A stretch of DNA of 64,000 bases. Source: Campylobacteraceae bacterium. GTDB lineage: Bacteria; Campylobacterota; Campylobacteria; Campylobacterales; Arcobacteraceae. The translations under genes and the position numbers were made by a program. The notes beneath the pieces are model-generated. The model saw nothing but the letters and a program-made list of their open reading frames with translations. It was not told the origin of the DNA and made no database searches. How positions within the stretch are numbered: the stretch's first letter is position 1; every line of letters starts with the position of its first letter. Of the stretch, positions 4,595 through 22,640 are shown in pieces. The stretch is from assembly GCA_013215945.1 (NCBI GenBank), contig JABSOM010000005.1, forward strand, positions 124,001 to 188,000, in the 5' to 3' direction.

Positions 4595-5386
4595 ATGAAT
4601 ATTATAAATTTTGAAAATGTAAATATTGGGTATGACTATAGGTATTTAATTTTAAAAAACTTAAATTTAAAAATACAAGAGGGTGAACATTGGGTTATTT
4701 TAGGAGGCAATGGTTCAGGAAAAACAACCTTACTGAAACTTATGTCTAATGATTTGTACCCCAATACGTATACTGCTTTTAAAAAAGAAGTTTTTGATCA
4801 AGAGCGTTGGGAAATTAGTAAATTGAAAAATCATTTAGGAATAGTAAGCACTAATTTACAAAATGATTTTATCTATAATGCGAGAAATTCAAGTGCTTTT
4901 GAGATTATTATGTCTGGTTTTTATTCAAGTTTAGGGAAAATGCTTCATCATATATATACAAAAGAACAAATACAAAAAACAAATGATATTTTAAAAGAAT
5001 TGTCTATTGAAAACTTGAAAGATAAAAAAGCCTATGAAATGTCAACGGGAGAGTTACGTAAGTGTTTAATTGCAAGAGCGTTAATACATCAACCAAAAGC
5101 TTTGATATTAGATGAACCAAGTACAGGCTTAGATATTAAAGCACAACATGAGTTTACTAAGCTTTTACGAAAATTAAGTAAAAAATTAAGCATTATTATT
5201 ATTACACATCATTTGGAAGAAATATTTGAAGAAATCACACATGTAGCACTTTTAGCCAAGAATCAAATATATAAACAAGGAAAAAAAGAAGACTTACTTA
5301 ACTCTAGTAATATTTCCAAGGTATTTGATATGAAACTTGAACTTGGAAAGAACAATCAAAGATACTTTATAAAAAATATTTTATGA
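4595..5386 (+). CDS. ABC transporter ATP-binding protein, single domain (ModF-like)
   Basis: 263 residues: Walker A GGNGSGKTT near residue 37, signature MSTGELRKCLIARA, Walker B ALILDEPSTGLD and H-loop IIITHHLEE. The ATG follows TTGAAGGATTAAA. No permease or binding protein lies next to it, so it is an orphan ATPase. The closest general type is the soluble ModF/YlmA group ('GEHWVILGGNGSGKTTLL'). Its last 6 bases overlap the convergent EamA gene. The transported substrate, if any, is unknown. Confidence 0.85.
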   Translation: MNIINFENVNIGYDYRYLILKNLNLKIQEGEHWVILGGNGSGKTTLLKLMSNDLYPNTYTAFKKEVFDQERWEISKLKNHLGIVSTNLQNDFIYNARNSSAFEIIMSGFYSSLGKMLHHIYTKEQIQKTNDILKELSIENLKDKKAYEMSTGELRKCLIARALIHQPKALILDEPSTGLDIKAQHEFTKLLRKLSKKLSIIIITHHLEEIFEEITHVALLAKNQIYKQGKKEDLLNSSNISKVFDMKLELGKNNQRYFIKNIL

Positions 5387-6262
5387 TTTTTTCTTAATCT
5401 GCTGTAATAATAGTCCCATTATTATTAAGCATAGACCTATTAGCGTTGAAAAAAGAATTTTTTCATCTAATATTAAATAAATAAGAAGTAATGAAATAAA
5501 GGGTGCTATGAAGATCAAATTAGCAATTTTTGACGTTGAAATTGTTTCTTTCATCGCTTTTAGCCAAAATAAGAATGTAATACTCATTTCAAATAAACCT
5601 ACATAAAAAGCCCCTAGTAAACCTTTTATTTCTGGAAGAATAAAACCCTCATCAAAATAAATATAAAGTAAAATAAAAGGAAAAGAGAGTAAAAAATTAC
5701 AAAATAGACCTACAACTGGGTCTACAGTGATTTTTGTATTATAAATCCAATACAAGGCCCAAAATACAGTTGAACTTAAAGCCAAAATTATTCCTAGCGT
5801 ACTTGTAAACTCTAAAGAAAAAGGACTGCCTTTGGTGGCAATAATTAATACTCCAAAATAACAAATAATTCCAGCTATAAAATCTCTTAGATGTAATTTT
5901 TGTTTTAATAATGGAATGGATAAATAACTTAAAGTTAATGCCCACGTATAGTTTATTGTTTGTGCTTCTTGAACAGGTAATAAATCATAGGCTTTAAACA
6001 ATACAAGATAAAATAAAAAAGGATTTAAAATAGCTAAAAATACTATCATTAAAAAGTTATTTTTAATATGTATAAGTATAAGAGCTGTTTTGTTCTGATA
6101 TATTAATATTGAAAACAAGGTGAGAATCGAAAAAAGTGCTGCATAAAACAGTAGTTGAGAGGGGTTTAAATATTCCAATGATATTTTAAATGCACTTGCT
6201 ACTGTGGACCATAGAAATACAGCTATTAATGCATAAATATACGCAAGCCTTTGATTCTTCAT
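5381..6262 (-). CDS. EamA/DMT-family permease
   Basis: 293 residues with ten predicted helices in two EamA halves. It starts MKNQRLAYIYALIAVFLWST and has FWALYWIYNTK at the junction of the halves. The C-terminus is cytoplasmic and Lys-rich (QQIKKKS). It is transcribed away from the hydroxyproline operon, so the 6263-6410 gap holds divergent promoters. A metabolite carrier of the DMT superfamily; co-location with the amino-acid catabolic genes may hint at amino-acid export, but this is only inference. Confidence 0.87.
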   Translation of the reverse strand: MKNQRLAYIYALIAVFLWSTVASAFKISLEYLNPSQLLFYAALFSILTLFSILIYQNKTALILIHIKNNFLMIVFLAILNPFLFYLVLFKAYDLLPVQEAQTINYTWALTLSYLSIPLLKQKLHLRDFIAGIICYFGVLIIATKGSPFSLEFTSTLGIILALSSTVFWALYWIYNTKITVDPVVGLFCNFLLSFPFILLYIYFDEGFILPEIKGLLGAFYVGLFEMSITFLFWLKAMKETISTSKIANLIFIAPFISLLLIYLILDEKILFSTLIGLCLIIMGLLLQQIKKKS

Positions 6263-6326
6263 TTATTGCCTTTTTAATTATTTCAGGATTCTTTAAGTTA
6301 AAAGTAAAATTCTATATGATATACTT

Positions 6327-6350
6327 CTGATATATCAGTTGATATATCAG
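6327..6350. promoter_or_regulatory. Tandem palindromic operator candidate
   Basis: A perfect 12-bp palindrome CTGATATATCAG is followed at once by a second near copy, TTGATATATCAG. It lies in the divergent gap between the EamA gene and the hydroxyproline operon, about 60 bases before the first translated codon of the latter. Size and symmetry suit a dimeric regulator such as the FCD-type GntR protein encoded at 17029. That pairing is inferred. Confidence 0.5.
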
Positions 6351-6410
6351 ACATATATTACATCCGACATAATATTACTATATTAATTAAATACAAATAA
6401 AAGGATTAAT

Positions 6411-6571
6411 ATGACTTGTGATTTTATTGGAGTATATCAAGCAGTAACAACAAAGTTCACTTCTAATGATGAAGTAGATATGGAGAAGAAAGAAAAGCAG
6501 TTTAAGCTATAATTGATACTGGTTTAAAAAACAGACCAAATTACCAACACTATAAAAAAAGACAAAAATAA
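6411..6571 (+). pseudogene. Relic of a DapA-family hydroxyproline-pathway deaminase (LhpC-like)
   Basis: An ATG at 6411 with AAGGATTAAT upstream opens MTCDFIGVYQAVTTKFTSND and runs only 33 codons to a TAA. The N-terminus matches the opening of the dihydrodipicolinate synthase/NAL superfamily ('GvxpAVtTpF..D..vD'). In another frame from about 6507 the text continues AIIDTGLKNRPNYQHYKKRQ to a TAA at 6571, which looks like the C-terminal helix of the same kind of protein. About 250 central residues, including the Schiff-base Lys, are gone. It sits directly ahead of alpha-ketoglutarate semialdehyde dehydrogenase, where 1-pyrroline-4-hydroxy-2-carboxylate deaminase is expected. The family call is from recall of the motif. 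Confidence 0.6.
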
Positions 6572-6582
6572 AAGGATTTAAT

Positions 6583-8166
6583 TTGAGTATACATGGCAAA
6601 AACTTTATTGGAAATGATTTATCAGCACAAGGCGATAAAAGTAATAAAATATATGATATTAACAGCAATATTGCATTAGAAGGTGATTTTAGTCATGCAA
6701 CTTCTAATGAAGTTTCTAAAGCTTTAGATTTAGCATCTAGTGCTTTTGTTGTGTATAAACAAAAATCACAAATACAAAGAGCCGTTTTTTTAGAAACAAT
6801 TGCGGAAGAAATAATGAATTTGGGTGATGAGTTAATACTTAGAGTAATGAGTGAATCTAATCTTCCAAGACCAAGACTTGAAGGTGAGAGAGGCCGTACA
6901 ATAGGACAACTTAAAATGTTCGCAAATTTATTAAGAGAGGGTTCTTGGGTTGAAGCTACAATAGATACAGCCTTGCCAAATAGAGCTCCCCTTCCTAGAA
7001 ATGATTTAAGAAAAATGCTTAGACCTTTGGGTGTAGTATCTGTTTTTGAAGCTAGTAATTTTCCTTTGGCTTTTTCTTGTGCAGGAGGAGATACAGCATC
7101 TGCATTAGCAGCAGGATGTCCAGTAATTGTAAAAGCACATAGCTCACATTCAGGAACTTCTGAATTAGTAGCAGGTGCTATTATTAAAGCAGTAATAAAA
7201 TGTGATATGCCTTCTGGTACTTTTTCTATGTTACATGGTAGCGGACGTGTGGTAGGACAGCAAATTGTAATGCATGATGCTGTTTGTGCTGTAGGGTTTA
7301 CGGGATCTACTTATGCAGGAATGGAACTGTATAAATTGGCAAATACACGAAAACACCCCATTCCAGTTTTCGCAGAAATGGGAAGTATTAATCCGTGTTT
7401 ATTTTTACCATCAGCTTTAAATGATACAAAAAAATTAGCAGCTTCTTATGCTTTTTCTATTACTTTGGGTGCAGGACAGTTTTGTACGAACCCTGGACTT
7501 ATTATTGCACTAAAAGATGAAAAACTAGAAGAATTTAAGAAAGATTTAGCGCAAGAAATAGAAAAAGTAAAACCTGCAACTATGCTTTCAAGCTCAATTG
7601 CTAAAGCCTATAAAGAAAATAAAGACAAAGCAATAGCTCAACATGGAACAACAGTAATTGCACAGGCTTTAGAAGATGGAATGATTAGTGAAGGAAAAGC
7701 TATTGTTGCAAGTGTAGCAGGAAGCGAGTTTATTAAAAATCCTACTTTACAAGAAGAAGTATTCGGACCTTATTCACTCTTAGTTGAATGTGAAAATAAA
7801 GAAGAGTTAATGAACGTTATTACGTCTTTAGAAGGGCAATTAACTGCTACTGTTATGGGTGAAGATCATGAAATGGATGAGTTTTCGTCTTTTATTTATG
7901 CGCTTGAAAACAAAGCGGGAAGAATATTATTTAATTCTGTTCCCACAGGTGTTGAAGTATGTCATTCTATGCAACATGGAGGTCCTTTCCCAGCTGCAAC
8001 AGATGCAAGATTTACCTCTGTAGGTACTGGAGCAATTAAACGATTTGTTAGACCTGTTTGTTTTCAAGATTGCCCAGTTTCACTTTTACCTCTAGAATTA
8101 AGAGATGAAAATGAATTAAAAATTTTAAGAATGGTAGATGATTCTTATTCAAATGAAAGTCTATGA
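6583..8166 (+). CDS. Alpha-ketoglutarate semialdehyde dehydrogenase (NADP-dependent aldehyde dehydrogenase)
   Basis: 527 residues of the long KGSADH-type aldehyde dehydrogenases. Catalytic Cys301 lies in GAGQFCTNPG and the general-base Glu in FAEMGSINP. It oxidises 2,5-dioxopentanoate to 2-oxoglutarate, the last step of the 4-hydroxyproline pathway (and of some sugar-acid pathways). The start is a TTG with AAAAGGATTTAA upstream, 12 bases after the deaminase relic. It overlaps the next gene by ATGA, so the two are translationally coupled. With the upstream deaminase broken, its substrate supply is unclear. Confidence 0.85.
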   Translation: MSIHGKNFIGNDLSAQGDKSNKIYDINSNIALEGDFSHATSNEVSKALDLASSAFVVYKQKSQIQRAVFLETIAEEIMNLGDELILRVMSESNLPRPRLEGERGRTIGQLKMFANLLREGSWVEATIDTALPNRAPLPRNDLRKMLRPLGVVSVFEASNFPLAFSCAGGDTASALAAGCPVIVKAHSSHSGTSELVAGAIIKAVIKCDMPSGTFSMLHGSGRVVGQQIVMHDAVCAVGFTGSTYAGMELYKLANTRKHPIPVFAEMGSINPCLFLPSALNDTKKLAASYAFSITLGAGQFCTNPGLIIALKDEKLEEFKKDLAQEIEKVKPATMLSSSIAKAYKENKDKAIAQHGTTVIAQALEDGMISEGKAIVASVAGSEFIKNPTLQEEVFGPYSLLVECENKEELMNVITSLEGQLTATVMGEDHEMDEFSSFIYALENKAGRILFNSVPTGVEVCHSMQHGGPFPAATDARFTSVGTGAIKRFVRPVCFQDCPVSLLPLELRDENELKILRMVDDSYSNESL

Positions 8167-9107
8167 GATTTTATACTAAAGAAGAAATAGATGGTGTTTT
8201 AAACTATCCTTCTTTAATAGAAGCACTAAAGGGTGCTTTTATTGGAGATAGTATTGTGCCTCCAAGACATCATCATGATTTCAAAAACCCAAAAGAAGGT
8301 ATTGACTCTACACTTTTATTAATGCCTGCGTGGAAAGAAAGTGAAAGTCTAGGCGTAAAGGTTGTAACCGTTAGTCCAAATAATGCAAAATACGATATGC
8401 CTTCAATTCAAGGAATTTATCTTTTATTTAATGCCCAAAATGGGAAATTAGATGCTCTTTTAGATGGTAAAGCGCTTACAGCTAAACGAACTGCTGCTTC
8501 TTCTGCTTTAGGATCTTCTTTTTTATCAAGAAAAGATTCTTCTTCTTTATTAATGATAGGTACTGGTGCTTTAAGCATTGAACTTATACGTGCACATGCA
8601 AGTGTAAGACCTATAAAAGATGTTTTTGTTTGGGGAAGAGATATTAACAAAGCAAAAAAAATAGCAAATGAATTAAAAAATGAATTTAACATTATAGCCG
8701 TTGAAACAATTTTGGAAGTTATTTCAAAAGTAGATATTATTTCTTGTGCGACCTTAAGTAAAACAGCTCTTGTTTTAGGTGAAAACCTAGTGGAAGGGCA
8801 ACATATAGATTTAGTTGGGGCTTATAAACCAGATATGAGAGAAGCCAACGATGCTTTGATCAAAAAAGTTGATATTTTTATTGATACACCTATGGCTTTA
8901 AAAGAAACAGGTGATCTTAAAATTCCTTTAGAACAAGGTACTATTAATAAAAATGACATACAAGCTGATTTATTTGACTTAAGCAGAAAAAAACACTTAG
9001 GTAGAAACAATAATAAACAAATTACTTTATTTAAATCTGTTGGCCATGCGCTGGAAGATTTAGCAGCGGCAATATTAGTAAAAGAAAAATTAATAGATAA
9101 AAATTAA
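8163..9107 (+). CDS. Ornithine cyclodeaminase/mu-crystallin family, likely 1-pyrroline-2-carboxylate reductase
   Basis: 314 residues: an N-terminal region with PPRHHHDF and DGKALTAKRTAASSALGS, then a Rossmann segment LLMIGTGALSIELIRAH that binds NAD(P)H, followed by VFVWGRD. Members of this family next to trans-3-hydroxyproline dehydratase reduce 1-pyrroline-2-carboxylate to L-proline. The dehydratase at 15973 and PutA at 19068 make that role the best fit here. True ornithine cyclodeaminase is less likely in this setting. The ATG overlaps the stop of the dehydrogenase by 4 bases. Confidence 0.75.
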   Translation: MRFYTKEEIDGVLNYPSLIEALKGAFIGDSIVPPRHHHDFKNPKEGIDSTLLLMPAWKESESLGVKVVTVSPNNAKYDMPSIQGIYLLFNAQNGKLDALLDGKALTAKRTAASSALGSSFLSRKDSSSLLMIGTGALSIELIRAHASVRPIKDVFVWGRDINKAKKIANELKNEFNIIAVETILEVISKVDIISCATLSKTALVLGENLVEGQHIDLVGAYKPDMREANDALIKKVDIFIDTPMALKETGDLKIPLEQGTINKNDIQADLFDLSRKKHLGRNNNKQITLFKSVGHALEDLAAAILVKEKLIDKN

Positions 9108-9133: not shown

Positions 9134-10138
9134 ATGTCATGTAAAACATTTTTTTGCGTAGATGCACATACTTGTGGAAACCCTGTTAGAGTTATTTTAG
9201 GAGGAGCACCTTTATTAAAAGGTGCTAATATGAGTGAAAAAAGGCAGCACTTTTTAAAAGAATTTGATTGGATTAGAACAGGGCTTATGTTTGAACCACG
9301 TGGTCATGATATGATGAGTGGAACAATAATATTTGAGCCAAGCAGCGATGATTTTGATGTATCTATTCTATTTATTGAAACAAGTGGGTGTTTACCTATG
9401 TGTGGACATGGAACAATTGGAACGGTTACTGTATTAATTGAAAAAGAAATAATTACTCCTAAAACACAAGGAGTATTGAGAATAGAAACTCCTGCTGGTT
9501 TGGTAATTGCAACATATAAAAAAGATGAAATGAACAGAGTTAAATCTGTAAAAATCGTTAATGTTCCTTCTTTTTTGCACTCACAGAACTTAAGTATAGA
9601 GTGTGAAGAACTGGGTGAGCTAAAATTTGATGTAGCTTATGGTGGAAACTTTTACGCCATTATTGATCCTCAAAAAAACTTTTCAGGTATTGAAAATTTT
9701 ACAGCAGCAGCTTTAATTTCAATGAGTAAAAAATTAAGAGATAAAATCAATGAAAAATATACTTTTATTCATCCTCTTAATGAAACCATTAATGGACTGT
9801 CTCATCTTGAATGGACAGGAAAAACAATAGATTCTAGCTCAAGTGCACGTAATGCTGTTTTTTATGGAGACAAAGCTATTGACAGATCACCTTGTGGAAC
9901 AGGAACATCTGCACGAATGGCGCAGTTATACGCAAAAGGAGAACTAAAACAAGGGGATGAATTTATTCATGAAAGTTTTATTGGTTCTAAATTTATAGGT
10001 CGCATTGAAGAAGAAATAAAATTAGGTAAATTTAATGCAATCATTCCTTCTGTTGAGGGATGGGCAAAAATCACAGGTCTAAATACTATTACTATTGATG
10101 ATGATGATCCTTATGCTCACGGTTTTGTGGTAATTTAA
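9134..10138 (+). CDS. 4-hydroxyproline 2-epimerase (proline racemase family)
   Basis: 334 residues. Both catalytic cysteines of the proline racemase fold are present: Cys90 in MCGHGTIG and Cys254 in DRSPCGTGTSARM. The two-Cys arrangement means racemisation or epimerisation rather than dehydration, and the RSPCGTGTSA form is usual in hydroxyproline epimerases (trans-4-hydroxy-L-proline to cis-4-hydroxy-D-proline). The ATG follows TAGGAGAAACT. One base separates it from the D-amino-acid dehydrogenase, its expected next enzyme. Confidence 0.85.
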   Translation: MSCKTFFCVDAHTCGNPVRVILGGAPLLKGANMSEKRQHFLKEFDWIRTGLMFEPRGHDMMSGTIIFEPSSDDFDVSILFIETSGCLPMCGHGTIGTVTVLIEKEIITPKTQGVLRIETPAGLVIATYKKDEMNRVKSVKIVNVPSFLHSQNLSIECEELGELKFDVAYGGNFYAIIDPQKNFSGIENFTAAALISMSKKLRDKINEKYTFIHPLNETINGLSHLEWTGKTIDSSSSARNAVFYGDKAIDRSPCGTGTSARMAQLYAKGELKQGDEFIHESFIGSKFIGRIEEEIKLGKFNAIIPSVEGWAKITGLNTITIDDDDPYAHGFVVI

Positions 10139-10139
10139 G

Positions 10140-11387
10140 ATGAGCAGTGTTGTAATTGTAGGAGCTGGAATTTCTGGACTTTGTTGTGCTTATTATTTGC
10201 ATAAAAGTGGACATGAAGTAAGTATTTATGATAGTTCTGATCTTGGAAGAGAATGTTCTTATGGAAATGCAGGACTTATTGTTCCCAGTCATTTTGAAAC
10301 CCTTGCAAATCCAGGAATTTTAAAAAAAGGATTTAAATGGATGTTAAATCCTAATTCTCCCTTTTTTTTGAAACCTCGTTTTGATATGGATTTAGTAAAA
10401 TGGCTTATTAAATTTAATATGTTTTGTACTAAAAAACATGTAAATGATAATAAGTATTTTTTACGAGATATAAATTTGTACTCTTTGTCTTTATATAAAG
10501 ACTTGGAAAAAAGTGATGATTTGAATTTTTCTTTAAAACAAAATGGTTTGTTAATGTTGTGTAAAGAAGAAAAAACTCTAGAAGAAGAAAGAAAGTTAGT
10601 AAGTGAAGCAAAAGAGCTTTCATTAGATGCGCAAATTTTAAGTTTGGATGAGATAAAAAAACTTGAACCTAATGTTTCTTTTAATGCCCTTGGTGCTAGT
10701 TACTTTAAAAGTGATGCCATTTTACAGCCTTATGATTTTATGATGAGTATTAAAAAATATTTAGAAGATAATAATGTCAAAATATATGAAAACTGTGAAA
10801 TTGAAGATGTTAATATTCAAAACAATAAAATCGTCTCTATTTCTTCTAAAGATGAATCTATTTCTGCTGATAATTTTGTTTTTACAGCGGGAATTGCTAC
10901 TTTTAAATTTGCAAAAAAACTCAATTTAAATCTAAGTATGGAAGCAGGAAAGGGATTTTCTTTTAAAGTTGATAAAAACCCTTCTTTAAACTTTTCAACA
11001 CCTTTAATATTAGCGGAGCAAAAAGTTGCGGTTAGCCCTTATGACTCTTATGTGAGATTTGGTGGTACTATGATGTTAGCAGGAGTTGATTTGTCTTTAA
11101 ATGATAGAAGAATCACAAATATAACAAAAGCTGCGAATTCTTATATTAATAATTTAGATATTAAAAAAGAAGACAGAAAAGATTTGTGGGCAGGATTAAG
11201 ACCTTGTTCCCCTGATGGTTTACCTTATATTGGAAAAGATAAAAACATCAAAAATCTTTTTGTAGCTACTGGTCATGCGATGATGGGAGTTTCTTTAGGC
11301 CCAGCAACTGGAAAAATTATTTGTGATTTAATTAATAACACAGCCTGTGATTTAGATATATCTAAAATGGATATCAATAGGTTTTAA
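10140..11387 (+). CDS. FAD-dependent D-amino acid dehydrogenase (D-hydroxyproline dehydrogenase-like)
   Basis: 415 residues starting SSVVIVGAGISGLCCAYYLH, the GxGxxG FAD-binding motif of the DadA/DAO family. The C-terminal FAD contact region reads LWAGLRPCSPDGLPYIG, then ATGHAMMGVSLGPATGK. Immediately downstream of the epimerase, it should oxidise cis-4-hydroxy-D-proline to 1-pyrroline-4-hydroxy-2-carboxylate and pass electrons to the respiratory chain. General D-amino-acid dehydrogenase activity is the alternative. It appears to be the last gene of the first transcript; a 238-bp gap follows. Confidence 0.82.
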   Translation: MSSVVIVGAGISGLCCAYYLHKSGHEVSIYDSSDLGRECSYGNAGLIVPSHFETLANPGILKKGFKWMLNPNSPFFLKPRFDMDLVKWLIKFNMFCTKKHVNDNKYFLRDINLYSLSLYKDLEKSDDLNFSLKQNGLLMLCKEEKTLEEERKLVSEAKELSLDAQILSLDEIKKLEPNVSFNALGASYFKSDAILQPYDFMMSIKKYLEDNNVKIYENCEIEDVNIQNNKIVSISSKDESISADNFVFTAGIATFKFAKKLNLNLSMEAGKGFSFKVDKNPSLNFSTPLILAEQKVAVSPYDSYVRFGGTMMLAGVDLSLNDRRITNITKAANSYINNLDIKKEDRKDLWAGLRPCSPDGLPYIGKDKNIKNLFVATGHAMMGVSLGPATGKIICDLINNTACDLDISKMDINRF

Positions 11388-11625: not shown

Positions 11626-12450
11626 ATGATGAATATAGTAAAAAAATTGGCGTTTTTAGCAGTATCGGTTTTAGCATTTGGGGCTACAAGTGCAAGTGCA
11701 GACAAGTTGGATAAAATTCTTTCTAAGGGTACAATTAGATGTGGAGTTGTTCTTGATTTCCCACCAATGGGATACAGAGATGCGAAAAATAATCCAGCAG
11801 GGTTTGATGTTGAATATTGTAAAGATTTAGCAAAAGCTTTGGGTGTTAAATTAGAGCTTAAATCTATGTCTTTTGCTCAAAGACTTCCAGCATTAAATGC
11901 AGGAAAAGTGGATGTTGTAATTGGATCAACGTCTGATACATTACAAAGAGCTAAATCAGCTGGTTTCACAATGCCTTATTTTGTATTTAAATTACAAGCT
12001 ATGGTTAAAAAAGATTCTGGAATTAAAGAATTTAAAGACTTAAAAGGTAAAAAAATTACTGCTGCTTTAAGTACAACTCCTGAAACTGAATTTTTGAAAA
12101 ATGCTAAAGCAAATGGTTGGGATTCATCAAACTATTTTTCTTCTAAAAAAGAAAGTGATACTCACTTAGCACTTTTACAAGGTAAAGCAGATGCAATTAT
12201 TACAACAGATACTACTATTGTTGAATTATTAAAACTTCCTAAGTACAAAGATTATAAAGCAGGTCCTTTTGTTCCTGGATTTGATGATTTTGTATCAATT
12301 ATTGTAAAAAGAACAGAATATGGAATGATTAATTACATGAACTTATTTATTCACCAACAAGTAAGATCTGGAAGATATAAAGAACTTAACAAAATGTTTT
12401 ACGGAAATAGTCCTGTTAGAAAATTAACTGTTGATGGTATTTATTACTAA
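11626..12450 (+). CDS. Polar amino-acid ABC transporter, periplasmic substrate-binding protein
   Basis: 274 residues with a Sec signal peptide ending ...AFGATSASA before DKLDKILSKG. The SBP_bac_3 fold is clear: IRCGVVLDFPPMGYRD, PAGFDVEYCKDLAKALG, DVVIGSTSDTLQRAK. Two ATGs are adjacent (11626 and 11629) after AAAGGAAAA; either can start the protein. The gene heads a transporter operon inside the hydroxyproline cluster, so proline, hydroxyproline or their betaines are the likely ligands. It is followed by a small hairpin that can lower expression of the membrane genes. Confidence 0.9.
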   Translation: MMNIVKKLAFLAVSVLAFGATSASADKLDKILSKGTIRCGVVLDFPPMGYRDAKNNPAGFDVEYCKDLAKALGVKLELKSMSFAQRLPALNAGKVDVVIGSTSDTLQRAKSAGFTMPYFVFKLQAMVKKDSGIKEFKDLKGKKITAALSTTPETEFLKNAKANGWDSSNYFSSKKESDTHLALLQGKADAIITTDTTIVELLKLPKYKDYKAGPFVPGFDDFVSIIVKRTEYGMINYMNLFIHQQVRSGRYKELNKMFYGNSPVRKLTVDGIYY

Positions 12451-12478
12451 AAATTAAGAGCTTTTGCTCTTGATTTTT
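12450..12478 (+). terminator. Hairpin between binding-protein and permease genes
   Basis: AAGAGC-TTTT-GCTCTT with flanking A and T tracts and ATTTTT after it forms a short terminator-like stem. In this position it probably gives partial termination or mRNA stabilisation, so that the binding protein is made in excess over the permeases. Confidence 0.6.
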
Positions 12479-12497
12479 AAACAAAGAAGGATTAGTA

Positions 12498-13172
12498 ATG
12501 TTTGATTTTGATTACACATTTCACTGGATAACCGTCTGGAACGTTTTTCCCGAGATGTTAAGTGCTGCAATGGTTACAATAGAAGTTGCAGTTATATCTA
12601 TGATTGTTGGTTTGTTTTTCGCTGTTTTTTTATCCTTAGGAAAAGACAGTTCAAATGAATTATATAGAACACCCAGTATTATTTGGATTGAGATTGCAAG
12701 AAATACACCTGCATTGTTTCAAATATACATGGCATATTTTGGTTTAGGAGCATTTGGTATTCATTTAAGTCCTTATTTGGCAGTAATGATGGCGCTTATT
12801 TTTAATAACGCAGGTTATTTAGCTGAAACATTAAGAGGAGGATTTGCATCAATACCACATACTCAAATGGCATCATCAAGATCTTTAGGTATGACTACTT
12901 TTCAAGCCTATAGATATATTATTTTACCTCAGGTTTTTAAAGTGGTATATCATCCAATGACAAATCAAATGATTTGGTCAATATTAATGACATCTTTAGG
13001 TACTTTGGTTGGAATGTTAGAACTTACAGGGAAAACTGATCAATTACAATCTCTGTCTTTTAGAACCTTTGAATTTTATTTAGTAGCAGCTGTAATGTAT
13101 TTTGTTATTGCAAAAGGTACACTGCTTTTAGCAAAATTATTAGCACATAAAATATTTAAAGGAGATGCATAA
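12498..13172 (+). CDS. Amino-acid ABC transporter permease (HisM family)
   Basis: 224 residues with five hydrophobic helices. The family EAA-type loop reads ETLRGGFASIPHTQMASSRSLGM. Start ATG 12498 has AGAAGGATTAGT upstream. It ends on the base where the second permease starts, so the two are coupled and form the heteromeric channel in the inner membrane. Confidence 0.9.
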   Translation: MFDFDYTFHWITVWNVFPEMLSAAMVTIEVAVISMIVGLFFAVFLSLGKDSSNELYRTPSIIWIEIARNTPALFQIYMAYFGLGAFGIHLSPYLAVMMALIFNNAGYLAETLRGGFASIPHTQMASSRSLGMTTFQAYRYIILPQVFKVVYHPMTNQMIWSILMTSLGTLVGMLELTGKTDQLQSLSFRTFEFYLVAAVMYFVIAKGTLLLAKLLAHKIFKGDA

Positions 13173-13894
13173 TGACTAATAAACAAATAAAATATCTTAT
13201 TTATAGTTCAATTTTTTTATATGCTGTTTATCAAACTGTAGTATCAGTAAAAGCATCGTCTTTAACATATTATGATTTAGTATTTTTATTAGAAGGATTA
13301 GAGCGAACGATTTACATTTCTTTTGTTTCTATTGTAATTGGAACATTTTTTGGAATAATATTTGGTTGGATGAAGGTTAATATGGGAACCTTTGGAAATA
13401 TAATATTAAGTGGTTTTTTGGATATTTTACGTTCAGTTCCCTTAATTATTCAACTTATTTTATTTTATTCTTTTATGGGAATTTTAGAAATTGAAATATC
13501 TGTTTTTTGGGTAGGAGCTATTATTTTATCTGCTTATACTTCTGCTTTTGTAACAGAAGTAGTACGTGCAGGAATTGAATGTGTCCCTGAAACAACAAGA
13601 AGAGCGGCCAGATCCTTAGGAATGACGTATTGGCAAGATTACAGATATATTGTTTTTCCCTTAGGTCTTAGAGCAGTATTCCCTTCATGGATATCAATTG
13701 TTTTATCTGTTATTAAAGATTCAGCATTGATTTCTGTTATTGGGTACTTAGAGTTGTTGAAAACAACAGAAGAATTAATAGCAAAAACAAATGAAGCACT
13801 GTTATTATTATTAGGAATTGGTTTGTTTTATTTTATTATTTCATATCCTATTTCATTGTATGCAGCTAAGTTAGAAAGGAAATTAAAAGTATGA
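13172..13894 (+). CDS. Amino-acid ABC transporter permease (HisM/GlnP family)
   Basis: 240 residues with five or six helices and a permease loop VVRAGIECVPETTRRAARSLGM. Its ATG shares one base with the stop of the previous permease, and its stop overlaps the ATPase start by 4 bases, so the three genes are translated together. ETTRRAARSLG matches the EAA consensus for ATPase contact. Confidence 0.9.
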   Translation: MTNKQIKYLIYSSIFLYAVYQTVVSVKASSLTYYDLVFLLEGLERTIYISFVSIVIGTFFGIIFGWMKVNMGTFGNIILSGFLDILRSVPLIIQLILFYSFMGILEIEISVFWVGAIILSAYTSAFVTEVVRAGIECVPETTRRAARSLGMTYWQDYRYIVFPLGLRAVFPSWISIVLSVIKDSALISVIGYLELLKTTEELIAKTNEALLLLLGIGLFYFIISYPISLYAAKLERKLKV

Positions 13895-14616
13895 TTGAAT
13901 TAAAGAAAGTACATAAGTCTTATGGAGATTTAGAAGTGTTAAAAGGTATTGATTTAACAGTTAAAAAAGGAGAAGTTCTTTCCGTTATTGGAGGTTCTGG
14001 TTCTGGAAAATCTACAATGCTTTATTGTATAAACGCTATTGAAAGTATTCAAAAAGGCGAAGTTTTAGTCGATGGAATTTCTGTTCACGATAAAAGTACT
14101 AATATTAATACCTTAAGACAAAAGATTGGAATGGTTTTTCAACAATGGAATTCTTTTCCTCATTTGACTGTATTAGAAAATGCGGCACTTTCTCCACAAA
14201 TTGTATTGGGAAAAAGCAAAGCAGAAGCAGAAAAAATTGCAAAAGAACAGCTTGATCATGTGGGATTAGGAGATAAGTTTAATGTTTATCCTGGTCGTAT
14301 GTCAGGTGGGCAACAACAGCGTCTTGCTATTGCGCGTGCTTTAGCTATGGAGCCTGAATACATGCTCTTTGATGAAATTACATCTGCTTTAGATCCTGAA
14401 TTAGTAGGAGAAGTACTAGATACCTTAAGACTTTTAAGAAAAGAAGGAATGACAATGATATGTGTTACTCACGAAATTGCATTTGCAAGAGAAGTATCAG
14501 ATAATGTTGCTTTTTTCCATAAGGGTGTTATTGAAGAATTTGGACCTCCTTCTCAGGTTATTTCAAATCCACAAAAAGAAAGAACACAACAATTCTTATC
14601 AAAAGTACTACAATAA
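13891..14616 (+). CDS. Amino-acid ABC transporter ATP-binding protein (GlnQ-like)
   Basis: 241 residues: Walker A GGSGSGKST, Q-loop VFQQWNSFPH, signature MSGGQQQRLAIARAL, Walker B MLFDEITSALDPE and H-loop VTHEIAFAREV. It has the full length and motif set of polar amino-acid transporter ATPases and completes the four-gene importer. Note that Walker B reads DEITSALD where DEPTSALD is usual; a Pro-to-Ile change there is tolerated in several family members. Confidence 0.92.
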   Translation: MIELKKVHKSYGDLEVLKGIDLTVKKGEVLSVIGGSGSGKSTMLYCINAIESIQKGEVLVDGISVHDKSTNINTLRQKIGMVFQQWNSFPHLTVLENAALSPQIVLGKSKAEAEKIAKEQLDHVGLGDKFNVYPGRMSGGQQQRLAIARALAMEPEYMLFDEITSALDPELVGEVLDTLRLLRKEGMTMICVTHEIAFAREVSDNVAFFHKGVIEEFGPPSQVISNPQKERTQQFLSKVLQ

Positions 14617-14627
14617 TATATATCGAA

Positions 14628-14692
14628 TTTATACGAAACACTCAAGGTTTCGTATAAATATATTTCATTCTTTTTTTAAAAAGAGTGAAATA
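14628..14692 (+). terminator. Two consecutive strong stem-loops after the transporter operon
   Basis: The first (14628-14658) is a perfect 12-bp stem, TTTATACGAAAC / GTTTCGTATAAA, with a 7-nt loop. The second (14661-14692) pairs TATTTCATTCTTTTT with AAAAAGAGTGAAATA with one wobble and almost no loop. They lie between the ATPase gene and the enolase-family gene. Terminator or processing roles are likely; the first could also be a palindromic operator for the downstream gene. Confidence 0.55.
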
Positions 14693-14712
14693 TGTTTATA
14701 CAAAGGAAAACT

Positions 14713-15819
14713 ATGAAAATTACAAATATTTTAGTATATCAAGTAGATTTACCCTTACATGAAGGTAGATACTCTTGGGCCAGTGGTAAGTATGTTGATG
14801 TTTTTGATTCAACTATTGTATGTATACAAACAGATACATCTTATATGGGGTGGGGAGAAAATTGTCCTTTAGGGCCATTTTATTTACCTGCTCATGCAAA
14901 AGGTTGTAGAGCTGCAATAGAAGAAATAGCACCTCATTTAATTGGTCTTGATCCCAGTAATTACGGTTTAATTAATAAAGTAATGGATGAAGCATTAATA
15001 GGACACAACTATGCCAAATCAGCTATTGATATGGCATGTTGGGATTTATTGGGTAAAAAAGCTAATTTAAGTATTTGTGATTTAATGGGTGGTAAACATG
15101 GTGATGAAATAGAATTATACAGAGCTATTTCTCAAGAAAGTCCCGAAAAAATGGCAGCAAAAGTATCTGGATATAGAAAAGAAGGATATAGAAAGTTTCA
15201 GTTAAAAGTAGGTGGCGATCCTGTTGAAGATATCAAACGAATTAAAGCTGTTTCAGAAGTATTAAAAGAGGGTGAGACTTTGGTAGCTGATGCTAATACT
15301 GGCTGGAAAGCACATGAAGCAATACGCGTTGTTAATGCAGTTAAAGATATTGATGTTTATATTGAGCAACCTTGTTTGTCTTATGAAGAATCTATTAAAG
15401 TTAGAAACAATACTACACTTCCTTTTATTCTGGATGAAAATATCAATGACATGTTAACGCTTTTACGTGCAGAAAATGACAGTGCAATGGATTGTATTAA
15501 TCTTAAGATTTCAAAAGTAGGGGGACTTACTAAAGCCAGACAAATAAGAGATTTGTGTGTGAACTTAGGCCTTCCTATGACTATTGAGGATTCTTGGGGT
15601 GGAGATATTGTAACCGCAGCTATTTCTCAATTAGCGCATTCAACGCCTGAGCGTTTTAGATTTTCATCAACAGATTTTAATTCTTATACCCCGGTAACAT
15701 TTGCAACAGGAGCTCCTAAAAGAGTAAATGGAAAAATGTCTGCTTCTTCTAAACCTGGACTTGGAATTGAACCTATTATGGATGTTTTGGGAAAAGCTGT
15801 ATATACATGTATTAAATAA
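14713..15819 (+). CDS. Enolase-superfamily enzyme, likely cis-3-hydroxy-L-proline dehydratase (or hydroxyproline-betaine epimerase)
   Basis: About 368 residues of the mandelate racemase/muconate lactonizing group. A lid residue region [10 protein letters not shown] is followed by [19 protein letters not shown]. The barrel residues are a Lys in KFQLKVGG, metal ligands in [13 protein letters not shown] and ILDEN, and the second Lys in NLKISKVGG. The QLK form replaces the common KxK motif, as in the HpbD and cis-3-hydroxyproline dehydratase clade. The neighbours (T3LHyp dehydratase, reductase, PutA) favour dehydration of cis-3-hydroxyproline to 1-pyrroline-2-carboxylate. I chose ATG 14713 because AAAGGAAAACT precedes it; an in-frame ATG 21 bases earlier has no site. 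Confidence 0.65.
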
Positions 15820-15840
15820 AAGCGATTCTCGCTTTTGTTT
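15818..15840 (+). terminator. Short terminator hairpin
   Basis: AAAAGCGA, a 3-nt loop TTC and TCGCTTTT are followed by GTTTGT. The 8-bp stem starts within the stop codon of the enolase-family gene and can end its transcript. Confidence 0.7.
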
Positions 15841-15879
15841 GTATCTAATTATATTACAGATATATTCTAGGATAAGTAT

Positions 15880-15905
15880 TTTTACTGTTTTACTTAACAG
15901 TAAAA
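15880..15905. promoter_or_regulatory. Perfect inverted repeat upstream of trans-3-hydroxyproline dehydratase
   Basis: TTTTACTGTT, six bases, then AACAGTAAAA gives a perfect 10-bp inverted repeat about 70 bases before the dehydratase ATG. It has no T-run and lies 40 bases after the terminator, so an operator is more likely than a second terminator. It may be the site of the adjacent GntR regulator. Confidence 0.45.
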
Positions 15906-15972
15906 TATCCTTTTATACGTGTTATTTTTATAATAAATCAAGCTTTAAAATACTTCTTTAAAAAGAGAGAAA

Positions 15973-17019
15973 ATGAATATATTAAATAAAATAAAACAAA
16001 GTAAATTGTCTTATAACAATGCATTAAGCATTAAAACAATTGATATGCACACAGGAGGCGAGCCTTTACGTGTTATTATTGATGGTTATCCTACGCTTAA
16101 AGGTAAGAGTATTCTAGAAAAAAGAAACTATACCAAAGAACATCTTGATCATTTACGAAAAGCTTTGATGTTTGAACCACGTGGCCATGCAGATATGTAT
16201 GGAGTAATTTTAACTGAAGCTTGTACTAAGGGCTGTGATTTTGGGGTTATTTTTATGCACAATGAAGGGTACAGTACTATGTGTGGACATGCAACTATTG
16301 CCATTACTAAATTAGCAGTACTTCAAAACTGGGTTGAAGTAACTGCTCCAATAACACATATTACAATAGATGCGCCTTGCGGGGTTTTACATGCCAGTGC
16401 TTATATTAATGATGAAGGAGAAGTAACAAAAGTAAGCTTTAAATGCGTACCTTCTTTTGTTCTTGCTTTAAATGAAAAAATCGAAGTTACAGATTTAGGT
16501 GAAATTACTTATGATTTGGCATATGGAGGGGCTTTCTATGCTTATATAGATGCGGACGAAATAGGCCTTAGTTTAGATAAGAATAATTATGATAAAATTA
16601 TCACTTATGGGAAAAAAATTAAAAAAAGTATAGTAGAAACAAAAGACAATATAAAACATCCTTTTGAAGAAGATTTAAGTTTTTTATATGGAACTATTTT
16701 TATCTCAAACAAATCAGACGTACATTCTAAAAATGTTTGTGTATTTGCAAATGGTGAAGTAGATAGAAGTCCCACGGGTTCTGGTGTATCTGGACGTGCA
16801 GCAATACACTATAAAAAAAATGAATTAGAAAAAAATCACTCAATTATTATTGAAAGTATTTTAAATACGAGTTTTGAAGTAAAAGTCCTGGAAGCATTAA
16901 AATATGGACAGTTTGATGCTATTATTCCAGAAGTAAGTGGGAATGCATATATTACAGGCGAGCATAACTTTTTAATAGATGAAGACGATGAATTGAAATA
17001 TGGATTTTTTTTAAGATAA
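15973..17019 (+). CDS. Trans-3-hydroxy-L-proline dehydratase (proline racemase family)
   Basis: 348 residues. The first catalytic Cys is present (Cys104 in MCGHATIAI), but the second is replaced by Thr268 in DRSPTGSGVSGRAA. That Cys/Thr pair is the known mark of trans-3-hydroxy-L-proline dehydratases, which release water to give 1-pyrroline-2-carboxylate, as opposed to the epimerase at 9134 with two Cys. The ATG follows AAAAGAGAGAAA. It is followed after 9 bases by a GntR gene and is probably co-transcribed with it. The product would be reduced to proline by the 8163 enzyme and burnt by PutA. Confidence 0.85.
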   Translation: MNILNKIKQSKLSYNNALSIKTIDMHTGGEPLRVIIDGYPTLKGKSILEKRNYTKEHLDHLRKALMFEPRGHADMYGVILTEACTKGCDFGVIFMHNEGYSTMCGHATIAITKLAVLQNWVEVTAPITHITIDAPCGVLHASAYINDEGEVTKVSFKCVPSFVLALNEKIEVTDLGEITYDLAYGGAFYAYIDADEIGLSLDKNNYDKIITYGKKIKKSIVETKDNIKHPFEEDLSFLYGTIFISNKSDVHSKNVCVFANGEVDRSPTGSGVSGRAAIHYKKNELEKNHSIIIESILNTSFEVKVLEALKYGQFDAIIPEVSGNAYITGEHNFLIDEDDELKYGFFLR

Positions 17020-17028
17020 AGGACTGAA

Positions 17029-17667
17029 ATGCCAGAAAATAAGTTATCAAATAAAGCGTATATAATACTAGAAGAATTTTTAGTAACACTTAAATTAGAA
17101 CCAGGAAAGACCTATTCAGAGAAAGAGTTGATGTCTTTAACTGGAGTCTCTCGTACACCTTTACGAGAAGCTTTACTAAAATTATCTTATGAAAGTTTAA
17201 TAAATATAATTCCACGCCGTGGTATAGAAATATCAGATATTAATATGACAAACCAATTGGCTATTTTAGAAACCAGAAGAGTTTTAGACAGTTTATTAAT
17301 TTCACGAGCGACTAAATATGCTACTACTTTTGAAAAAGAACATATTCAGGAATTTAAAAACCATATGCAAGAAGCCGTTGATGCAAATGATGTGGAAGCA
17401 TTTTTACGTATTGACAAAGAAATGGATAATCTTATTTTTAAAACCGCAAGAAATGAATTTGCAAGTAAGGCTACAAGCCCATTACATGTGAGGTCTAGAC
17501 GCTTTTGGTATTATTTTAAAGGCATAGAAGATTTACAAAAATCGGCAAATACTCATATGAAATTAATTGATGCGATAATAGAAGGTAATGAAAAAGAAGC
17601 CTTACAAATTTCAGATCAGATCATAAATGGTTTGGTAGATGTTGTAAAAAAATATATTAATCTGTAA
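17029..17667 (+). CDS. GntR-family transcriptional regulator, FCD subfamily
   Basis: 212 residues. A winged helix-turn-helix (KELMSLTGVSRTPLREALLKL, then IPRRGIEIS) is followed by an all-helical FCD ligand domain (residues about 80-205) with ETRRVLDSLLI and a late HMKLIDAIIEGNEKEAL helix with His and acidic residues. Proteins of this kind sense organic acids or amino acids and act on palindromic sites. Being in the transcript of the dehydratase, it probably controls the hydroxyproline genes; the palindromes at 6327 and 15880 are candidate sites. Which one it binds is not known. Confidence 0.85.
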   Translation: MPENKLSNKAYIILEEFLVTLKLEPGKTYSEKELMSLTGVSRTPLREALLKLSYESLINIIPRRGIEISDINMTNQLAILETRRVLDSLLISRATKYATTFEKEHIQEFKNHMQEAVDANDVEAFLRIDKEMDNLIFKTARNEFASKATSPLHVRSRRFWYYFKGIEDLQKSANTHMKLIDAIIEGNEKEALQISDQIINGLVDVVKKYINL

Positions 17668-19067: not shown

Positions 19068-22000
19068 ATGGAAAAAAATATTGAGCTTATCAATTCGGCA
19101 ATAAAACTTGCAGCTAAATGGCAAAACAGAGCTACAGAACTTGTAAGTGATTTTGACAGAGTATTTTATATTAAAATGAATAAGATGTTAGAACAGCCAA
19201 AAGACAAGGCTTTGTTAATAGAGTTGATGGATCAATGTTTTAGAGCTGAATCTAATGCTAGAGTTGCTAATCAAATTTGTTTTTTGTTAAAAAAACATGG
19301 AATGGCACATTTTTTTACAACAAAAGATAAAACATTATTATATCTTTTCCAAAACATAGGGAAATACTTACCCAATATCTCTGTTCCTTTATTTGTGAAT
19401 CAAATAAGAGAAGATACTAAAACAGTTGTAATTAAAGGCGAGGAAAAATTTCTTTCTGCTCATTTACAAAAAAGAAAAAAAGAAGGTACAAGAGTTAATA
19501 TTAATCTTATTGGGGAAGTAGTTCTTGGAGAAGAAGAAGCGGGCGAGCGAATGGATAAGTATATTAAAGCTTTAAAAAACCCTGATGTAGATTATTTATC
19601 AATTAAAATTTCTACTATTTTTTCTCAAATTAATCCTTTAGATTTTGATAATACAGTAGATATATTGGTTGAAAAATTAACAAAAATTTATAGAGTGGCT
19701 AAAGAAAACACTTTTATTAATTTTAATGGAAAAAAAGAGTATAAATTTGTAAATCTTGATATGGAAGAGTACAGAGATTTAGCAATTACAGTGGCTGTAT
19801 TTAAAAAGACTCTTGAAAAAGAAGAATTCAAAGATTTGTATGCTGGAATTGTATTACAAGCTTATTTACCTGATTCTTACCTTTGGCAACAAGATTTATG
19901 TGACTGGGCAAGAAACAGAGTTCAAAATGGTGGTTCTGCTATTAAGTTCAGATTGGTTAAAGGTGCTAACATGGAAATGGAAGAAACCGAAGCCTCTCAA
20001 AAACATTGGGAAATGGTTACTTATATAGATAAAGCGGATACAGATTCAAATTACAAACGAATGGTAAATTATGCACTTGATAAAAACAATGCTCAATATA
20101 TGCATATAGGAACAGCTTCTCATAACTTATTTGAATTGGCTTATGCAACTGTATTAGCTGACGATAATAATACGGGGGAATTTCATAGCTTAGAAATGCT
20201 TGAGGGTATGAGTGAATCTGCACGACTTGCTATAAAAGAGATTTCAAAAGAAGTGATTTTATATGCACCTACTGCTTCTAAAGAACAGTTTACCAATGCT
20301 ATTGCTTATTTAGTTAGAAGATTGGATGAAAATACAGGACCTGATAACTTTATAAGATATTCTTTTGGTTTAACAGTGGATTCAAGTGATTGGAAAATGC
20401 AAGAAAAACTTTTTGTAGAAAGTTTTGAAGTAGAAAAAACATCTTTTGTAGGTAGTAAAAGAACACAAAACAGATTAGAAGAAAAATGGAATAAATTTTC
20501 AAATTCTTCTTATGATACAAATTCTTATCATGCTGAAGCAGATACGGATTTTATTTTAAGTAAAAATCATGAGTGGGCACAAAATATTGTTAAAAAATGG
20601 AAAAAATCTAACGCTAGTAAACATGAAATTGCTCCTGTTGTTGTTGGAGGAGAAGATTTAGTAGGTGATCGTAAAATTTATGAGGCTATTGACAAATCAC
20701 AATTTGAAGAAGGTGTTCTTGCTGGTAAATTTGCATTAGCAACAGAAGCTGATATTAAAAAAGCCGTTGACGTTGCAAGAGCAGATAAAGATGGGTGGAG
20801 AGATTTATCTCATGAACAAAGACATGAAGCTTTAAAAAAAGTGGCTATAAAAGTACGTGAGAGAAGAGATGATTTAATTGGGGTTGCAGCTGCTGAAGTT
20901 GGTAAAGTATTTACTGAAACTGATGTAGAAGTATCTGAAGCGATTGATTTTATTGAATTTTATACTCATGCTATAAGACATTTTGATGCTTATGAAAACT
21001 TAGAGTTAAAAGCAAAAGGAGTAGGTGTTGTTGTACCACCTTGGAATTTCCCTATTGCTATTCCTATGGGTGGGGTTGCTGCTTCATTAGCTGCTGGAAA
21101 TACGGTTATTATTAAACCTGCTTCTGTTGCTGCTTTATGTTCTTATGAGATGTGTAAGTGTTTTTGGGATGCTGGAATTTCTAAGAATGTATTACAATTT
21201 TTGCCTTGTCCAGGTGCACTTGCAGGAGAATTTTTAATTCCTAATAAAGATATTGATTTCTTGATTTTAACAGGGGGAGAAGATACGGCTGCTTCTATGT
21301 TAGAAACAAGAAACGATTTGTTTTTATCTGCTGAAACAGGTGGAAAAGATGCGACTATAGTTACTAATATGGCAGATCGAGAACAAGCGGTTAAAAATGT
21401 GTGTTTATCTGCTTTTAAAAACTCAGGGCAAAAATGTAGCGCAACTTCTCTTTTAGTATTAGAAGAAGAAGTTTATAATGATAAAAATTTTAGAAAAGCG
21501 CTAATAGATACTGCAAAATCACTAAATGTAGGATCAATTTGGGATTTTAAAAATGCAATTGGAACCTTGGCTAATAAAGTAAGTGGAAATTTAGAAAAAG
21601 CAATTTCTTCATTAGAAGGCGAAGAAGAATGGGCACTAGAGCCTAAATATGTAAATGATAATCCTTATATGTTAAGTCCAGGAATTAAATGGGGAGTAAG
21701 TGAAGGTAGTTTTATTCATATGAATGAATTATTCGGACCTGTACTAGCTGTTATAAAAGCGTCTGATTTAAAACATGCTGTAAAGATTGTAAATGCTACA
21801 GGTTATGGCTTAACATCTGGAATTGAGTCTTTAGATGAAAGAGAAGTATCGTACTGGAGAGAAAATTTAAAAGCGGGGAATCTTTATATTAATAGAGGAA
21901 CTACGGGTGCTATTGTTTTACGTCAGCCTTTTGGTGGAATGGGAAAATCTGCTATAGGAGCTGGGCGTAAGGCTGGTTTTTATAACTATATTACACAATT

Positions 22001-22640
22001 CGTTGATATTGCTGAAAAAACGCTTCCTAAGGCTAAAAAAGAATATAAAAGTGATTTGAGTTCTTTTCTAAAAAGATGTGCTTCAATATCTTCAAATAAA
22101 AGTGATTTTAATAAATTAGAAGCTGCTTATCAATCGTATGAAGAAAATTATGAAAATGAGTTTTCTCTTGAAAAAGATTATGCGAAAGTTAGAGGAGAAG
22201 ACAATCACTTTAGATACTTACCTTTAAATAAGGTTGTTATTAGAGTAAGTAAAGAAGACAGTATTTTTGAAATAGTATCTAGAATACTAGCTTCTAGAGT
22301 AGCTAAGGTAAGTTTTACAGTTTCAATGAGTGAGGATGCAAATATAAAAGTATTTTTAGAAAATTCTTTAGAACTTTTTTCAAGTTCTGATACTCTTGTT
22401 ATTGAAAATGAAGAATCATTCATTAAAACGATAAAACAATATGAAAGAGTTATTTACTCTAATATTAAAAAAGTATCTTCTGCTGTATTTAAAGAAAGTG
22501 TTAAAACCTTGGTTTTTATCATAAGACAAGAGCCTTTAATGGAGGGTAGATTAGAATTATTGAATTATTTTTCTGAACAAAGTATTTCTCATTCATATCA
22601 CAGATATGGGAATATTGGGGCAAGAGAAGCAAGTAAATAA
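19068..22640 (+). CDS. putA: Bifunctional proline dehydrogenase / L-glutamate gamma-semialdehyde dehydrogenase
   Basis: 1190 residues. The N-terminal half is the FAD-dependent proline dehydrogenase barrel (KISTIFSQINPLDFD, FRLVKGANMEMEE, HIGTASHNLFELAYA, and RYSFG). From about residue 530 comes the aldehyde dehydrogenase with VVPPWNFPIAIPMGG, Glu near 754 in SAETGGKDA, and catalytic Cys near 789 in SGQKCSATS. A C-terminal domain of about 200 residues follows. There is no N-terminal RHH domain, unlike E. coli PutA, so this PutA cannot repress its own gene by that route. It converts proline to glutamate and donates electrons to quinone at the membrane. The ATG follows CTAAGGAATAATA. Confidence 0.96.
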   Translation: MEKNIELINSAIKLAAKWQNRATELVSDFDRVFYIKMNKMLEQPKDKALLIELMDQCFRAESNARVANQICFLLKKHGMAHFFTTKDKTLLYLFQNIGKYLPNISVPLFVNQIREDTKTVVIKGEEKFLSAHLQKRKKEGTRVNINLIGEVVLGEEEAGERMDKYIKALKNPDVDYLSIKISTIFSQINPLDFDNTVDILVEKLTKIYRVAKENTFINFNGKKEYKFVNLDMEEYRDLAITVAVFKKTLEKEEFKDLYAGIVLQAYLPDSYLWQQDLCDWARNRVQNGGSAIKFRLVKGANMEMEETEASQKHWEMVTYIDKADTDSNYKRMVNYALDKNNAQYMHIGTASHNLFELAYATVLADDNNTGEFHSLEMLEGMSESARLAIKEISKEVILYAPTASKEQFTNAIAYLVRRLDENTGPDNFIRYSFGLTVDSSDWKMQEKLFVESFEVEKTSFVGSKRTQNRLEEKWNKFSNSSYDTNSYHAEADTDFILSKNHEWAQNIVKKWKKSNASKHEIAPVVVGGEDLVGDRKIYEAIDKSQFEEGVLAGKFALATEADIKKAVDVARADKDGWRDLSHEQRHEALKKVAIKVRERRDDLIGVAAAEVGKVFTETDVEVSEAIDFIEFYTHAIRHFDAYENLELKAKGVGVVVPPWNFPIAIPMGGVAASLAAGNTVIIKPASVAALCSYEMCKCFWDAGISKNVLQFLPCPGALAGEFLIPNKDIDFLILTGGEDTAASMLETRNDLFLSAETGGKDATIVTNMADREQAVKNVCLSAFKNSGQKCSATSLLVLEEEVYNDKNFRKALIDTAKSLNVGSIWDFKNAIGTLANKVSGNLEKAISSLEGEEEWALEPKYVNDNPYMLSPGIKWGVSEGSFIHMNELFGPVLAVIKASDLKHAVKIVNATGYGLTSGIESLDEREVSYWRENLKAGNLYINRGTTGAIVLRQPFGGMGKSAIGAGRKAGFYNYITQFVDIAEKTLPKAKKEYKSDLSSFLKRCASISSNKSDFNKLEAAYQSYEENYENEFSLEKDYAKVRGEDNHFRYLPLNKVVIRVSKEDSIFEIVSRILASRVAKVSFTVSMSEDANIKVFLENSLELFSSSDTLVIENEESFIKTIKQYERVIYSNIKKVSSAVFKESVKTLVFIIRQEPLMEGRLELLNYFSEQSISHSYHRYGNIGAREASK

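Follow-up and report, generated by a model that had tools for sequence, protein, structure and literature searches.

The deaminase step of hydroxyproline catabolism is known from the DHDPS superfamily, to which both LhpC and the protein described below, D326, belong (PMC4113996, PMC6608401). In clusters of the LhpC type the deaminase gene lies beside those for the epimerase, the D-hydroxyproline dehydrogenase and the semialdehyde dehydrogenase (PMC4113996, PMC6608401); the locus analysed here is like them in superfamily and in this arrangement, but its own LhpC-like gene is a relic, and the proposed replacement, D326, forms a separate DHDPS lineage. The HypR (GntR) hydroxyproline regulons of Proteobacteria consist of genes scattered over several loci and joined by one GntR-type regulon (PMC5343134). 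The same appears to hold here, although the TGATATATCA motif and its reader are predictions in the present case, and Campylobacterota lie outside that study. As in non-orthologous gene displacement, a gene of different ancestry seems to have assumed one step of a conserved pathway; the difference is that LhpC and D326 share a superfamily, that the swap recurs in three phyla and that the remains of the old gene are still visible. The literature on hydroxyproline with Arcobacter or Pseudoalteromonas yielded nothing on displacement of LhpC by D326.

The window, the whole 64,000-nucleotide stretch that was analysed, comes from an Arcobacteraceae genome (G000) whose assembly is 98.7% complete, with 28 contigs and 3.24 Mb. 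Its operon (Table 1) encodes the pathway for 4-hydroxyproline, an amino acid of collagen, with an added branch from 3-hydroxyproline to proline (window 14692-17019, with PutA). The roles of the D-amino acid dehydrogenase and the aldehyde dehydrogenase follow the published logic of hydroxyproline clusters (PMC4113996), and the name LhpC is assigned here by gene place.

Table 1. Positions of the operon features in the window, and of D326 elsewhere in the genome
Feature	Position	Strand	Basis
22-bp palindrome TGATATATCAGTTGATATATCA, probable operon operator	6328..6349	.	2 copies in 3.24-Mb genome
5' piece of lhpC relic	6411..6479	+	codons 1-23 with start codon; alignment to intact G002, G003, G006 and G024 genes
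3' piece of lhpC relic	6480..6555	+	codons 278-301, out of frame with 5' piece; alignment to intact genes and to second relic on C2
Aldehyde dehydrogenase, by place 2-oxoglutarate semialdehyde dehydrogenase	6583..8166	+	best NCBIfam matches 2,5-dioxovalerate / ketoglutaric semialdehyde dehydrogenases, below cut-off
Pyrroline-2-carboxylate reductase (OCD family)	8163..9107	+	NCBIfam NF004793, 377 bits, cut-off 322
4-hydroxyproline epimerase	9134..10138	+	NCBIfam NF010578, 570.5 bits, cut-off 376
FAD-dependent D-amino acid dehydrogenase, by place D-hydroxyproline dehydrogenase	10140..11387	+	NCBIfam NF001933, 251.6 bits, below cut-off
ABC transporter: binding protein, two permeases, ATPase	11626..14616	+	ORFs; kept in all complete related operons fetched
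cis-3-hydroxyproline dehydratase	14692-15819		NCBIfam, over cut-off
Second proline-racemase family protein, closest to trans-3-hydroxyproline dehydratase	15973-17019		NCBIfam, below cut-off
GntR-family regulator, candidate reader of the palindrome	17029..17667	+	
PutA	19068-22640		
D326, 326 aa	G000:C2:303866-304846		PF00701 member

At the head of the operon there is a 33-codon frame with its start at 6411 and its stop codon at 6510-6512 (6411-6512 including the stop), and a C-terminal-like tail, AIIDTGLKNRPN, is found in a different frame. From these two features, both of which are indeed in the sequence, the earlier note had proposed an internal-deletion relic of a DapA-family deaminase gene at 6411-6571. 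Alignment of the DNA to intact genes bears out the relic: codons 1-23 and 278-301 are kept, ~760 bp are missing between the two pieces and the join is out of frame. The end that had been proposed, 6571, lies ~15 bases past the old stop. The 5' piece is identical at 59 of 69 bases to the gene of G003 and at 61 of 69 to that of G024, while the 3' piece is identical at 65 of 74 bases to a second lhpC relic on contig C2. Further damage includes a TAA in place of CAA at 6503-6505, a change of proline 10 to glutamine and the loss of one base near the C-terminus.

The best three-frame Smith-Waterman score of the relic against LhpC was 109, as compared with a mean of 27 (SD 4) and a maximum of 44 when its bases were shuffled 1000 times, which rules out chance resemblance; the 3' piece alone scored 56 (shuffle maximum 38). 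Against D326 and DapA the same stretch scored only 27 and 32, respectively. The 33- and 48-residue relic peptides gave no Pfam match; as these are too short for Pfam, the intact orthologue served as the reference for similarity. A sister genome, G001, whose aldehyde dehydrogenase is 98% identical to that of the window, shares this relic, including its junction and the TAA, and differs by one A in the spacer. Because an independent genome has an identical junction and TAA, an assembly error is rejected. The similarity is beyond chance, an intact orthologue occupies the same place in relatives and the open frame is destroyed; 6411-6555 is thus confirmed as the internal-deletion relic of an LhpC-like DHDPS-family gene.

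The identity of window 6263-6582 in G000 and G001 may reflect either recent local recombination or some retained function. This spacer, which holds the relic, has no substitutions between the two genomes (319 bp, one indel), as compared with differences of ~3-8% in four other operon spacers, and the lhpC start also persists in scraps of five other genomes. Both observations would fit a relic whose 5' leader, with its 33-codon frame, has been kept as a translated leader or as an element of operon expression. We consider this most improbable. The adjoining 5000-6199 is also of low divergence, so that a recent recombination tract would suffice for the identity of the spacer; furthermore, the second relic on C2 has no start, and the comparison covers two genomes only.

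A complete 301-codon DHDPS-family gene lies between an EamA-type exporter and the aldehyde dehydrogenase in G002 and G003, which are of the same genus; its protein starts with MTCDFIGVYPAVTTKFN and ends with QAIIDHGIQNRPTLPAL. In G006 and G024, of the same family, an intact LhpC gene stands directly before the same aldehyde dehydrogenase. The relic therefore occupies the place of LhpC, as had been supposed; the relatives that might have had no DapA-family gene here do have one, and the similarity to DapA/LhpC is present. An intact LhpC-like gene elsewhere in G000, which the earlier note had suggested looking for, was found neither by tblastn with intact LhpC nor by a PF00701 search of the genome.

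The latter search returned two proteins only, DapA on C12 and D326 on C2, and no further PF00701 member that could be a third, Sinorhizobium-like HypD. D326 is 27% identical to the Arcobacteraceae LhpC, and a DHDPS-family protein of Sinorhizobium medicae at a hypD-like position is likewise 27% identical to both. D326 matches PF00701 with 81.6 bits (cut-off 22.1) and its predicted structure is a DHDPS-like barrel (pTM 0.82). It resembles DapA in superfamily fold and in the position of the Schiff-base lysine, which aligns in D326, DapA and LhpC. Nevertheless, it scores 94.5 bits against the dapA equivalog TIGR00674, below the cut-off of 206 (the genome's own DapA scores 360 bits), and has YNNPDAAG in place of YNVPGRTG; assignment of D326 as a DapA was rejected on these grounds. 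With LhpC it has in common the lysine position, GTLGE and YNNP, and neither protein has the YNVPGRTG motif of DapA. No published enzyme assay of D326 was found.

The palindrome TGATATATCAGTTGATATATCA, searched at up to three mismatches in the 3.24-Mb genome, occurs at two places only, upstream of the operon and upstream of D326 on C2; its reversed pattern is absent. On C2 the palindrome copy, the second lhpC relic (codons 250-301, 5'-deleted, its start entirely lost) and D326 follow one another in that order (G000:C2:303611-304846, which is L067 9612-10847), the relic being directly upstream of D326. This segment is an apparent duplicate of the operon head; in this genus D326 is located on another contig than the operon. 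With a copy of the palindrome and the 3' end of lhpC before it, D326 lies downstream of a duplicated operon promoter region, and its expression would be induced by hydroxyproline. The TGATATATCA element, or a near copy, is found upstream of the LhpC or D326 gene in 12 of the 12 related operons examined.

The operon aldehyde dehydrogenase is present in 14 of 104 Arcobacteraceae genomes, four of which have an intact LhpC and ten, G000 included, D326; none has both and none has neither. D326 was not found without the operon dehydrogenase among the 104 genomes (Fisher p 4e-11, the genomes being related and not independent). In eight of the ten (G008, G036, G019, G109, G118, G112, G111 and G099) D326 is itself the first gene of the operon, immediately before the dehydrogenase; five of these genomes (G008, G036, G109, G112 and G099) retain the initial codons of LhpC (MKCKFIGVYPAVTT or a near variant) between these two genes. 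The scrap of the lhpC start in G112 (L075 10112-11773) shares the reading frame of the aldehyde dehydrogenase, and the annotated dehydrogenase frame thereby gains a 26-residue lhpC-derived extension. The operon head of G019 (L072 6602-11137) is a patchwork, with two EamA exporter copies before D326; its dehydrogenase is only 56% identical to that of the window and has an internal TAA at the contig end.

The deaminase might have been lost without replacement, in which case 4-hydroxyproline carbon would stop at the pyrroline intermediate and the operon would either survive for the branch from 3-hydroxyproline to proline or be disappearing. The gene for LhpC is dead in G000, and the cis-3-hydroxyproline dehydratase, the trans-3-hydroxyproline dehydratase-like protein, the pyrroline-2-carboxylate reductase and PutA would provide a second use of the operon. 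Nevertheless, the epimerase and the D-amino acid and semialdehyde dehydrogenases, which that branch does not need, are still under strong purifying selection, and D326 is found exactly where LhpC is absent; we regard an unreplaced loss as very unlikely. The G000-G001 comparison gave dN/dS values of 0.043 (aldehyde dehydrogenase), 0.057 (epimerase), 0.070 (D-amino acid dehydrogenase) and 0.096 (D326), within a range of 0.04-0.12 for pathway genes. In both genomes, where lhpC is dead, the rest of the pathway is under purifying selection and shows no sign of decay. The earlier note had gone on to argue that 4-hydroxyproline carbon is cut off from 2-oxoglutarate unless another deaminase exists. 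The cut-off finds no support, given that D326 lies behind the same palindrome and occurs in all of the operon-bearing genomes without LhpC and in none of those with it, and that the pathway genes are undecayed. It is the proviso that applies, with D326, the putative deaminase, in the place of LhpC in eight related genomes.

Between Arcobacteraceae genera the dS of D326 is 0.08-0.41, as compared with mostly 0.7-1.6 for neighbouring genes. In a tree, D326 of Arcobacteraceae falls together with a single Colwellia sequence (L081), within a Colwellia/Shewanella/Thalassotalea clade. The L081 protein is 98% identical to the Arcobacteraceae copy (dS 0.12), and the epimerase on the same contig, which is metagenome-assembled, is 58% identical. 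On that contig D326 (L081 3999-4973) lies beside a typical Colwellia epimerase and FAD dehydrogenase, which could reflect a recent cross-phylum exchange or a matter of binning or assembly. The low dS relative to neighbours, together with the grouping with Colwellia, shows that D326 moved across phyla as a single gene, and its nesting in the midpoint-rooted tree points to a direction into Arcobacteraceae, from gammaproteobacterial (Colwellia-like) relatives. Further relatives of D326 (137 stretches, of which 80 were kept) occur in Colwellia, Shewanella, Pseudoalteromonas, Thalassotalea, Undibacterium and many Flavobacteriia. A gene of the 4-hydroxyproline-epimerase family lies within the fetched stretch in 48 of 81 D326 loci, and on a Pseudoalteromonas plasmid the D326 locus has an epimerase near a collagenase.

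When intact DHDPS genes were masked, LhpC relics were detected in D326-bearing loci of Colwellia (3), Shewanella electrodiphila, Lacinutrix, Hyunsoonleella, Gaetbulibacter (2), Polaribacter, Flaviramulus and Aestuariibaculum; in the same loci, reversed queries and DapA, used as controls, gave zero relics. In five Shewanella genomes an lhpC relic lies just before hypE, and in four of the five D326 is located far from the cluster; the break points differ (codons 1-86 and 259-304; 1-13 and 221-303; 1-84; 264-304; 1-105 and 170-304). The relic of Shewanella kaireitica (L162 2135-2527, codons 1-86 and 259-304) falls inside a single open frame of 139 codons, from which translation could yield a short DHDPS fragment. 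The relic in the window is one case of a recurrent event.

D326 could belong to the hydroxyproline regulon and yet serve another step, deamination being left to an unrelated enzyme or to spontaneous chemistry. Six genomes of Undibacterium/Oxalobacteraceae carry D326 yet lack a close 4-hydroxyproline epimerase, so that D326 may have another or a wider role, and in Shewanella sp. UCD-KL12 LhpC and D326 are both intact. The strict either-or in Arcobacteraceae and the many LhpC relics beside D326 tell against such a role, as does the membership of both proteins in the superfamily known for the deamination step (PMC4113996, PMC6608401), and we hold it to be highly improbable.

We conclude that recurrent displacement of the deaminase LhpC by D326, with D326 as the predicted catalyst, is by far the most probable explanation of these observations. 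We propose that D326 was acquired as a single gene from Colwellia-like gammaproteobacterial relatives, and that its arrival would have preceded the death of lhpC, whose loss could be tolerated because a member of the same superfamily had been acquired that does the same step. In the most likely account, D326 would act on the pyrroline substrate through the same Schiff-base intermediate, releasing ketoglutarate semialdehyde; by performing the deamination it would make LhpC redundant. With this replacement in place, the route from 4-hydroxyproline through D-hydroxyproline, pyrroline-hydroxycarboxylate and ketoglutarate semialdehyde to 2-oxoglutarate should still run, and the hydroxyproline pathway of G000 is probably intact. 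More broadly, we think it likely that D326 represents an undescribed second lineage of hydroxyproline-pathway deaminases, which has spread between phyla as a lone gene and rendered LhpC redundant on repeated occasions, the lhpC fossils marking independent replacements in Campylobacterota, Gammaproteobacteria and Bacteroidota.

What had appeared to be a pathway loss thus becomes a natural experiment on enzyme replacement, and its interest lies in recurrent displacement rather than in loss. One relic is insufficient to call a pathway broken. The old gene, the new gene and the intermediate states (both intact, one decaying, the old one gone) can be read in living genomes, and a likely function is suggested for a large, highly conserved group of 'dihydrodipicolinate synthase family protein' sequences of marine bacteria.
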